From: a virus
Length of the DNA stretch: 30,317 nt
IMG/VR virus record: IMGVR_UViG_3300048554_000409
Coordinates: 1 to 30,317 of that record
Strand: one strand, 5' to 3'
Below the pieces are notes generated by a model. That model saw only the letters and a program-made list of their open reading frames with translations, ran no database searches and was not told the origin of the DNA. This document shows positions 18,609 through 22,762 of the stretch, piece by piece (position 1 is the stretch's first letter; every line of letters starts with the position of its first letter). A program made the translations under genes and the position numbers.

Positions 18609-19040
18609 ATGGCAAATCCTTTTGATGGACTAAATGATGCTTTTGGAGCAGAACCTTCTGAACTTGAAAAACATGTTGAAAAGGTAAAACCAGAACTGAA
18701 AAAAACTGATACTCCTGATGTGAGGCAGGATTATGAGTATTCTCGTGCTCAACTTCACAACTTAGTAATGAAAGGTCAGGAGGCAGTAGATGGCATACTT
18801 GATGTGGCACGAGCGTCAGATCATCCTCGTGCTTATGAAGTTGCAGGTCAACTTATTAAACATGTAGCAGACACTGCTGACAAACTCATTGACTTACAAA
18901 AGAAAATGAAGGATTTAGATGCAGAGGATAAAAAGTCGGGCCCGTCTACTGTTAATAACACGATGTTTATTGGCAGTACTGCGGACTTACAAAAGATGTT
19001 AAAGAAGCAAAAGGAGATAAATAATACTGACACGAACTAA
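18609..19040 (+). CDS. 16: Terminase small subunit gp16-like
   Basis: This 143-residue protein (T4 gp16 has 164) contains DVRQDYEYSRAQLHNLVMKGQEAVDGILDVARASDHPRAYEVAGQLI. It corresponds to the T4 LEDDYGVVRRNMHFQQQML...A..ADSPRHMEVFATLM region. Near its end, TMFIGSTADLQKML parallels T4 TVFMGSPTELMDEI. The middle is a helical coiled coil (about 75-110), as in the oligomerising core of gp16. In T4, gp16 rings recognise DNA and stimulate the gp17 packaging motor. Here g17 starts about 5.1 kb downstream rather than overlapping g16. Confidence 0.9.
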   Translation: MANPFDGLNDAFGAEPSELEKHVEKVKPELKKTDTPDVRQDYEYSRAQLHNLVMKGQEAVDGILDVARASDHPRAYEVAGQLIKHVADTADKLIDLQKKMKDLDAEDKKSGPSTVNNTMFIGSTADLQKMLKKQKEINNTDTN

Positions 19041-19046
19041 CATGAC

Positions 19047-19583
19047 ATGACAGTATTAAATGTTTTAAGCACAAATGCAATTGCTGCTGATGCTACCGAG
19101 TATCAAGTTGTACAGACTGGATACTATCGCGTGGTTGCAACTGCAGGTGATGCCACAGTCGCATTCAATGGTGGTCCCGCAATCACTCTGATTCAAGATC
19201 AAGCACTTCTACTAAAGGGTGGCAAACCTGGTCAAGCAAGAATTGTAAAAGGCGTAGATGATTCGACTGCAGATTATCAACTCGGAACTAATCTTGGTGA
19301 GTTGTCAAACACTCATCCATTCTCAGTAGATGACTTCATTGCTGTAGAGGATGATAGCACATCTCCTGCAATCAATGCTGCTTTCTTGTCAGCAGGAACA
19401 GCAGGTAAGAAAGTTACTGCTGCAACAGGAAATACAATCAGCACTGATATTGACTCTTCTGCTGCATCTGCCGATTACACCTATGCTTACAGCGGACCTC
19501 AGGCAGTTGTTAAGCGTTGCGTAAGTATTGCTGCAACTGGCAATGCAATTGTTGTTGAAGAAGTACAAGTTGTAGGCGGTTGA
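19047..19583 (+). CDS. Beta-rich protein, unknown, possibly virion-associated
   Basis: This 178-residue protein is not assigned to a family. It has alternating hydrophobic and small residues (YYRVVATAGDATVAFNGGPAITLIQDQALLLKGGKPGQARIVKG, about residues 26-68). The second half is Ala/Thr/Ser-rich and ends VKRCVSIAATGNAIVVEEVQVVGG. The composition suggests a beta-sandwich and there is no signal peptide. An ATG five bases earlier (19042) is in another frame and closes quickly, so 19047 is chosen. It sits between small terminase and a basic modular protein, so a virion role is plausible but unproven. Confidence 0.75.
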   Translation: MTVLNVLSTNAIAADATEYQVVQTGYYRVVATAGDATVAFNGGPAITLIQDQALLLKGGKPGQARIVKGVDDSTADYQLGTNLGELSNTHPFSVDDFIAVEDDSTSPAINAAFLSAGTAGKKVTAATGNTISTDIDSSAASADYTYAYSGPQAVVKRCVSIAATGNAIVVEEVQVVGG

Positions 19584-21144: not shown

Positions 21145-21173
21145 CTGACAATCTGGGTAAATAGTATTATACT
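21145..21173 (+). promoter_or_regulatory. Sigma70-type promoter before the accessory cassette
   Basis: CTGACA (21145-21150), a 17-base spacer and TATACT (21168-21173) match the bacterial sigma70 consensus at five of six bases in each hexamer with ideal spacing. The spacer also holds a late-like GGTAAATA (21156-21163). Transcription would start near 21180, just before the membrane-peptide gene at 21197. Confidence 0.55.
21156..21163 (+). promoter_or_regulatory. Late-like box GGTAAATA
   Basis: GGTAAATA keeps the TAAATA core of T4-type late promoters. The surrounding GGTAAATAGT-n-TTA...TATCAA pattern is repeated in front of the plastocyanin gene at 21732. Confidence 0.4.
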
Positions 21174-21196: not shown

Positions 21197-21409
21197 ATGG
21201 TTTCATTTTACTTATTGGTAACTGCTTTCATTTTGCTTGTAGCATATGCAGGTATGGAGAATACCATGCGGTTATTTGAATTTGCAGATTTAGAATTGCG
21301 TTGGCATTGGGTTATATTCCGTAGTTATTTTATCAGAAGAGATCTAGAAGAACGACTAGGATTTCCCAAGACGAGTTTTATACAACACTACAAAACCTAT
21401 GGAAAGTAA
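21197..21409 (+). CDS. Small single-span membrane protein, unknown function
   Basis: This 70-residue protein starts with a hydrophobic helix (SFYLLVTAFILLVAYAGM, residues 3-20), followed by a charged, aromatic C-terminal domain (LELRWHWVIFRSYFIRRDLEERLGF). I chose ATG 21197; an upstream TTG start at 21173 would overlap the -10 hexamer of the likely promoter. The orientation cannot be determined securely. No family is recognised. It is the first gene of the accessory cassette and overlaps the next by 11 bases. Confidence 0.65.
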   Translation: MVSFYLLVTAFILLVAYAGMENTMRLFEFADLELRWHWVIFRSYFIRRDLEERLGFPKTSFIQHYKTYGK

Positions 21410-21692
21410 AGAAGTATCCGAATTATCTCTGTCTAGAACGGAGTGTGAGAAGTGTGGTGCTATTTGGATTAATGGTAAGCACATGTTTAGTGGAACTGCT
21501 GCCTCATACGATAGCAGCGAACTAGACCTTGCTGGTTTAGTATGCAATACGTTAGGTAATGAGCAGTGTATTAATCCCAGAAAAGGGCAAGATGGTGGTC
21601 AGACATGGGCGTATAGAGCAGGATTTGTTGATGGTGCAATTAAAGCAAAAAGAGATACTTTAGATGATTTAAATGGCATGATGAATCCCTGA
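21399..21692 (+). CDS. Hypothetical protein with a CxxC motif
   Basis: This 97-residue protein contains C16-x2-C19 (TECEKCGAIWINGKHMFSG) plus Cys49 and Cys57 (NEQCINPRKG). The four cysteines could form a small zinc site. The second half (QTWAYRAGFVDGAIKAKRDTLDDLN) looks helical. I do not recognise the family. The gene overlaps the end of the membrane-protein gene and precedes plastocyanin after 68 bases. Confidence 0.65.
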   Translation: MESKEVSELSLSRTECEKCGAIWINGKHMFSGTAASYDSSELDLAGLVCNTLGNEQCINPRKGQDGGQTWAYRAGFVDGAIKAKRDTLDDLNGMMNP

Positions 21693-21718
21693 CATAGACT
21701 GTTAAATCTTAGTTAAAT

Positions 21719-21771
21719 AGAAACTTCATTAGGTAAATAGTCTTAGTTACTATCAACCGAATGAAGTTTCT
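21719..21771 (+). promoter_or_regulatory. Inverted repeat enclosing the petE start codon
   Basis: AGAAACTTCATT (21719-21730) and AATGAAGTTTCT (21760-21771) are perfect 12-base complements separated by 29 bases. One T-T mismatch followed by three A-T pairs extends the stem outward. The AUG at 21761-21763 lies within the right arm, so transcripts that include both arms would hide the petE start. Confidence 0.7.
21732..21739 (+). promoter_or_regulatory. Late-like box GGTAAATA inside the petE hairpin loop
   Basis: GGTAAATA falls within the 29-base loop. A transcript starting at the usual late-promoter distance (about 21745) would lack the left arm and leave the petE start codon unpaired. Confidence 0.5.
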
Positions 21772-22084
21772 TTTTGCAATTTTTATTACTATGGTTTTTG
21801 CTCTTCCAGCATGGGCAGTTGATGTCTCAATGGGTGCTAATGGAAACCTAGCATTCTCACCAAATGAGCTCACAATCTCTGCTGGTGATACAGTTCATTT
21901 TATCAACGAATCACTTCCTCCTCATAATATTATTGTTGAGGCACGTCCTGATCTTTCTAGAGAAGCATTATTGTTTGCTCCTGGAGAATCACAAGATGTT
22001 GTGTTTGCTGATGCAGGTGATTACAACTTTTTCTGTGGTCCTCATCAGGGTGCAGGTATGACTGGAATCGTCCATGTAGAATGA
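21761..22084 (+). CDS. petE: Plastocyanin
   Basis: This 107-residue protein has a Sec-type signal peptide (MKFLFAIFITMVFALPAWA, cleavage likely after Ala19) and a cupredoxin domain. The copper ligands are all present: His55 (LPPHN), then Cys92, His95 and Met100 in CGPHQGAGM. Plastocyanin carries electrons from cytochrome b6f to photosystem I in the thylakoid lumen. Phage copies are thought to sustain electron flow during infection. The length is about that of host precursors, and the gene looks intact and functional. It lies alone between two small unknown genes, behind its own late-like box. Its start codon is buried in an inverted repeat and has no clear Shine-Dalgarno site. Confidence 0.95.
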   Translation: MKFLFAIFITMVFALPAWAVDVSMGANGNLAFSPNELTISAGDTVHFINESLPPHNIIVEARPDLSREALLFAPGESQDVVFADAGDYNFFCGPHQGAGMTGIVHVE

Positions 22085-22285: not shown

Positions 22286-22762
22286 ATGAAAGTAGGAATG
22301 ATAGGTCTAGGTCGTACTGGTGAAGGTATGGCTCGCCGTATGATTGAGAAAGGTATTGAAGTCTGGGGTTACAGTAGTACTAACTATGAGAATGCCTGTG
22401 GACAATATGAAGCAGGACATATCAGTGGATGTGTAACTTCAATAGAGTATCTTGTCCAGGCAGTTAAATCTGATGCTAAGAAGTTTACTAGTGCTGGTAG
22501 GATTCCTGGTATTTTTCAGATGACATGTCCAGAGCAAAAAGCAGAAGACACACTTGATGAGTTGCTACCATTACTCGAAGAGGGTGATATTATCATTGAT
22601 CATAGCACCAGTGACATTTCAAAATGTCAAGAACTTCAAAAGTATTGTAGTAAGTTAGGTATCTCATATATCTTCTCTGGAGTATATGGAGATACCCATG
22701 CTGTCAATGCATGTTCTAAAATTTTCCAATCGCTATCACCAGGTAATGCCTTCCGAATTTGA
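22286..22762 (+). CDS. NAD-binding-domain remnant related to 6-phosphogluconate dehydrogenase
   Basis: This 158-residue protein starts with MKVGMIGLGRTGEGMARRM. It has the Rossmann GxGxxG (Gly7, Gly9, Gly12) of the 6-phosphogluconate/3-hydroxyacid dehydrogenase superfamily. ELLPLLEEGDIIIDHSTSD (92-110) matches the end of that domain. Next, FSGVYGDTHAV...KIFQSLSPG (130-153) aligns with family sequence only if the SGGxxGAxxG loop is deleted. The C-terminal helical domain that normally carries the catalytic Lys is absent. Complete phage 6PGDH (gnd) proteins feed NADPH production through the pentose phosphate pathway. This one probably cannot catalyse that reaction and may be a decayed or repurposed nucleotide-binding domain. 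No frameshifted remainder was seen downstream. Confidence 0.7.
   Translation: MKVGMIGLGRTGEGMARRMIEKGIEVWGYSSTNYENACGQYEAGHISGCVTSIEYLVQAVKSDAKKFTSAGRIPGIFQMTCPEQKAEDTLDELLPLLEEGDIIIDHSTSDISKCQELQKYCSKLGISYIFSGVYGDTHAVNACSKIFQSLSPGNAFRI

Follow-up and report, generated by a model that had tools for sequence, protein, structure and literature searches.

In bacteriophage T4, a late promoter placed inside a hairpin that closes the translation start is known for gene e (lysozyme), soc, gene 49 and I-TevI. This device is reviewed in PMC3014915, which bears out the precedent invoked in a sequence-only reading of the DNA studied here, and it is established for gene e. The gene e promoters, two copies of the consensus TATAAATA, sit in the leader segment that forms the 5' strand of the hairpin, and the Shine-Dalgarno region is paired; the long RNA is closed and the promoter-initiated RNA is open. 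The psbA 5'-UTR of cyanophage S-PM2d (PMC5931967) likewise belongs to a photosynthesis gene and has a leader hairpin along with promoter motifs of the early and late kinds, but the hairpin there follows the promoter motif, so that RNA begun from the motif retains it, and the start codon stays open. The effect proposed there is one on stability, not a promoter-linked lock.

A layout like that of T4 gene e, with a long form predicted to be closed and a promoter-initiated form predicted to be open, precedes the plastocyanin gene petE in a 30.3-kb virus record, the whole of which was analysed (the window) and whose closest relatives among named phages are Synechococcus phages ACG-2014a, d and g. 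With its ATG at 21761, petE belongs to a small gene cassette flanked by the tail sheath stabilizer gene on one side and by the terminase and tail sheath genes on the other; all are + strand genes. The features are the following, class A being the group of leaders that have the window's layout.

21145 to 21173, + strand: sigma-70-like promoter, CTGACA-17-TATACT, 10 of 12 matches, with GGTAAATA (21156-21163) in its spacer
21399 to 21692, + strand: small upstream gene, phrog_484, of unknown function; its 3' end is 68 nt before petE
21719 to 21730, + strand: left outer arm, AGAAACTTCATT, the perfect complement of 21760-21771; conserved and covarying in relatives
21732 to 21739, + strand: GGTAAATA, putative late-type (gp55) promoter element in the hairpin; GTAAATA is invariant in class A
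21737 to 21753, + strand: inner stem ATAGT/ACTAT with loop CTTAGTT, from the fold; its end pair is U-A, U-G or C-G among relatives
21745, + strand: predicted transcription start, the sixth base past the element, from the purine preference at that offset
21760 to 21771, + strand: right outer arm, AATGAAGTTTCT, the petE AUG and next codons, from the inverted repeat and the fold
21761 to 22084, + strand: petE, plastocyanin, 107 aa (Pfam PF00127, E 1.1e-19)

The comparison with gene e also brings out differences. In the predicted fold of petE it is the AUG and codons 2 to 5 that are paired inside the long hairpin, and no Shine-Dalgarno sequence is visible in the 16-nt predicted leader, whereas in gene e the Shine-Dalgarno region is paired; the petE promoter candidate is an off-consensus GTAAATA that overlaps the stem. 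Since genes of cyanobacteria that are independent of a Shine-Dalgarno sequence tend toward weak leader structure (PMC6847405), a closed petE start would matter more. Furthermore, petE is a host-derived photosynthesis gene, unlike gene e, and its lock is a prediction from sequence. While the device itself is known from T4, no description of the petE hairpin was found in a library of open-access papers, and the petE case appears to be undescribed there.

The perfect 12-bp inverted repeat that had been noticed at the petE start is indeed present, AGAAACTTCATT being fully complementary to AATGAAGTTTCT, and the full hairpin exceeds it, with arms at 21715-21741 and 21749-21775 (27 nt, 85% complementary, 7 nt apart). 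The same reading had placed the promoter in a 29-base loop between the two repeats. The element does lie there, but the loop holds two short stems, GGT/ACC and ATAGT/ACTAT, so the element is partly in a stem and not in an open loop. A 101-nt stretch folds at -25.5 kcal/mol (z = -4.8), a stability that none of 200 shuffles equals, and when the upstream 46 nt are dinucleotide-shuffled 20,000 times, a 12-bp arm against the start codon turns up once. There is no Rfam match at the gathering score in the window.

The petE leaders gathered from IMG/VR and from named phages comprise 154 distinct sequences over -70 to +30. About 25 of these form class A; class B is the residual rest of about 129 distinct leaders, a few of which (e.g. 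L120) are near-copies of class A leaders. The hairpin and the GTAAATA element precede petE in Syn9, Syn19, S-SM1, S-RIM2, S-RIM12 and ACG-2014a, d and g, and the same hairpin is folded by 25 of the 26 aligned class A leaders. Covarying arms, proposed earlier as a check, are found in the hairpin type of these approximately eight named phages, where compensatory changes are present. Across 23 distinct class A leaders, standard pairs make up 92% of the cells in 21 pairs. Changes on both sides occur in four pairs, for example A-U replaced by U-A in the ACG-2014a type (AAATACTTCAT with ATGAAGTATTT), and the end pair of the inner stem occurs as U-A, U-G and C-G in this alignment. Among 500 shuffles, none reaches the covariation score or the percentage paired and 4 reach the count of doubly changed pairs, figures that kinship between the sequences makes optimistic. 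With the same alignment, RNAalifold retrieves no more than 12 pairs and gives a small covariation term, partly because one sequence type sits one base shifted in it. In an alignment-free swap test, leaders with their own arms reach a mean of -16.9, compared with -14.4 (sd 0.46) for arms re-paired at random, and none of 5000 re-pairings matches the former value.

These data bear on whether the complementarity has arisen by chance, or by common ancestry without selection on the pairing. The sequences are related and many pairs are invariant, hence uninformative on covariation, but the rarity of the arm in shuffles and the compensatory changes speak against this explanation, as does the tree of mature PetE, on which the hairpin label must change 12 times, with well-supported branches forcing six or more of the changes (FastTree, few columns). 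The forced changes imply that the leader is not simply carried along with one gene lineage, and that leader and petE body have recombined while the arms still match locally. Chance or bare ancestry is therefore considered very improbable.

The late motif reported for cyanophages is NATAAATA (PMC2984593), and the petE element GGTAAATA, containing GTAAATA, is one position off this consensus. In Syn9, NATAAATA occurs 37 times on the + strand and once on the - strand; the strand bias of NGTAAATA ([N]GTAAATA) in the same genome is modest, 27:16, which weakens the late-promoter support for the petE element. The sixth base past NATAAATA is a purine in 88% of 42 sites (Syn9 and the window), and on this ground the petE transcription start is placed at A21745. 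The bases downstream of the petE element also resemble those of the tail-sheath late promoter (GTAAATAGTCTTAGT versus TATAAATAATCTTAGA). Taken as sequence evidence, the case for GTAAATA in the petE hairpin being a late promoter is good but indirect.

Some further promoter-like sequences were considered. The element TAGATAGTGTAGTT, found before petE in class B phages, also precedes the transaldolase gene (talC) in L367, but as a general promoter it is rejected, since for the most part the matches are 14-mers occurring by chance, with 31 of 120 located before petE and one before talC. A copy of GTAAATAGTCTTAG is seen near the end of phoA in S-SM1. The other top promoter-in-hairpin match in Syn9, before gp4, lies in the divergent gap with gp48 and looks like two back-to-back promoters and not like a read-through lock.

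Accessibility of the start was calculated as an opening cost, the free energy required to unpair the region from -8 to +10 at the AUG, for two RNAs: a read-through form of 100 nt (long) and a form begun at the sixth or seventh base past the element (short). For the window petE the cost is 18.1 kcal/mol in the read-through RNA and 5.0 kcal/mol in the RNA begun at A21745. The class A values are 15.0 (long) versus 5.5 kcal/mol (short), falling to 6.4 when the upstream sequence is shuffled, and the class B values are 5.2 versus 4.3 kcal/mol. The positive control, T4 gene e, has similar computed costs to those of petE, 15.8 versus 4.7 or 2.0. The documented case of T4 soc gives 8.0 versus 7.3 and is thus missed by this measure, which is therefore uncalibrated. 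Among the 160 predicted genes of Syn9, and likewise among the 20 of the window, no start is more sequestered than that of petE. The psbA starts of the phages with this leader are open (1-3 kcal/mol). The earlier suggestion that read-through RNA is translated poorly and loop-initiated RNA freely is consequently upheld for the computed start-accessibility gap, which in these models has the size seen for gene e; poor translation stays a prediction.

Elsewhere in the window, at 19016-19070, GATAAATA precedes a gene at 19047 whose start has a modelled opening cost of 9.6 kcal/mol in the long RNA and 2.4 kcal/mol in the promoter-initiated RNA, possibly a weaker case of the same layout.

It is probable, on these models, that petE carries a translational lock of the T4 gene e type. 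RNA from upstream promoters would carry the left arm, the AUG and codons 2 to 5 would be held in the long hairpin, and translation would be poor. Any RNA begun inside the hairpin is missing the left outer arm, and RNA begun at the GTAAATA promoter (predicted +1 A21745) would also be without the left side of the inner stem and so have an open start. PetE protein would thus depend on the gene's own promoter, not on read-through. We infer, as parts of this lock, promoter activity, late timing, repression in vivo and that the RNA read through from the sigma-70-like site is the silenced form. A leader hairpin that serves RNA stability or processing, with no internal promoter, has been proposed for the S-PM2d psbA leader, where a 36-bp inverted repeat in the 5'-UTR was tied to mRNA stability (PMC5931967). 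For petE this explanation is improbable, as its hairpin includes the start codon and a promoter-like element, whereas in S-PM2 the psbA hairpin comes after the promoter motif and the start stays accessible, at an opening cost of 4.2.

The gene e-type lock presupposes RNA entering from upstream. The sigma-70-like site that precedes the small gene, with GGTAAATA in its spacer, recurs at the same place and in the same arrangement in ACG-2014a, d and g and in Syn9. Counting the window and these four, together with S-RIM2, S-RIM12, S-SM1 and Syn19, whose sites differ in sequence, nine phages have sigma-70-like sites 390-590 nt before the element, in three different sequences that score 10-11 of 12, a height that arises by chance every few kb. 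The pattern scan did not find such a site upstream of petE in S-MbCM100 or L075; the L087 locus runs in the reverse direction. Early read-through petE RNA from the sigma-70-like promoter is plausible on this sequence evidence, and it is also possible that late RNA reads through from the structural genes. Describing plastocyanin as strictly promoter-timed, as was done initially, goes too far, considering that the element is one base off NATAAATA and that the upstream RNA may be late too.

The 71-nt element is matched by 155 phage-collection records and, among the matches listed, all are at petE. The one class A exception, L028/L022, has kept a remnant of the left arm, but the petE start differs and the hairpin structure is lost. 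Most other petE leaders are also without the hairpin, so it is dispensable somewhere. An intact petE without the left arm, named earlier as an observation that would count against the lock, does occur in most other petE phages, but their leader is entirely different, so that the claim is confined to one leader type and is not refuted there. The hairpin lock is not general among petE phages.

Most class B leaders have a TAGATAGTGTAGTTG-like sequence at the same distance, without the class A hairpin. In some of them (e.g. L006, L160 and L145; about -27 to -12) the conserved TAGATAGTGTAGTTG is complementary to CTACACTA in codons 9-13, and this pairing could form a different hairpin with the start codon in its loop. 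The idea that class B leaders are a concealed form of the same lock is rejected, as start accessibility is unchanged. In L142, L144, L148, L175, L140, L155, L150 and L209, GC-rich hairpins resembling terminators lie immediately upstream of the petE promoter region, in the position that the start-codon hairpin occupies in class A; a simple scan finds such terminators ahead of the class B petE promoter in 10 of 129 leaders, at least eight of them convincing.

These terminators suggest that barring upstream RNA from petE expression is useful, whichever means is employed, and this is in agreement with a reading of the class A hairpin as a transcription attenuator, in which the stem and the U-rich first petE codons directly after it end the read-through RNA and RNA begun inside escapes. 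Nevertheless, G-C pairs are few near the base of the A/U-rich stem, the AUG is at the centre of the pairing, the promoter/terminator scan does not call the petE hairpin a terminator, and a second scan finds a canonical terminator (GC-rich stem, then U-run) in none of 25 class A leaders. Attenuation is accordingly rated unlikely, and translational closure of the start the preferred reading.

Cyanophage metabolic genes are mostly discussed by way of their presence and transcript level. If petE RNA from upstream promoters goes untranslated, transcript counts, including those of metatranscriptomes, would misstate plastocyanin production. It is about evenly balanced whether the wider reading holds, namely that a conserved RNA switch in many marine T4-like cyanophages parts early, host-type transcription of petE from late translation and makes plastocyanin conditional on the embedded promoter, as the first case of a promoter-linked translational lock in a metabolic gene of a cyanophage. 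If true, this would carry the T4 device across a wide evolutionary gap to a gene of host origin and would indicate when the phage wants the plastocyanin electron carrier. The presence of the element in cultured phages such as Syn9 and Syn19 makes the claim directly testable.

Two neighbouring observations concern gene annotation. The 6-phosphogluconate dehydrogenase gene at 22286-22762 of the window encodes just 158 aa, with a match to the NAD-binding domain, and ACG-2014a shares this short form. In L090 (S-MbCM100), petE is annotated from an internal start, as a single base in the signal-peptide T-run causes a frameshift; either a sequencing error or a defective gene may be the reason.
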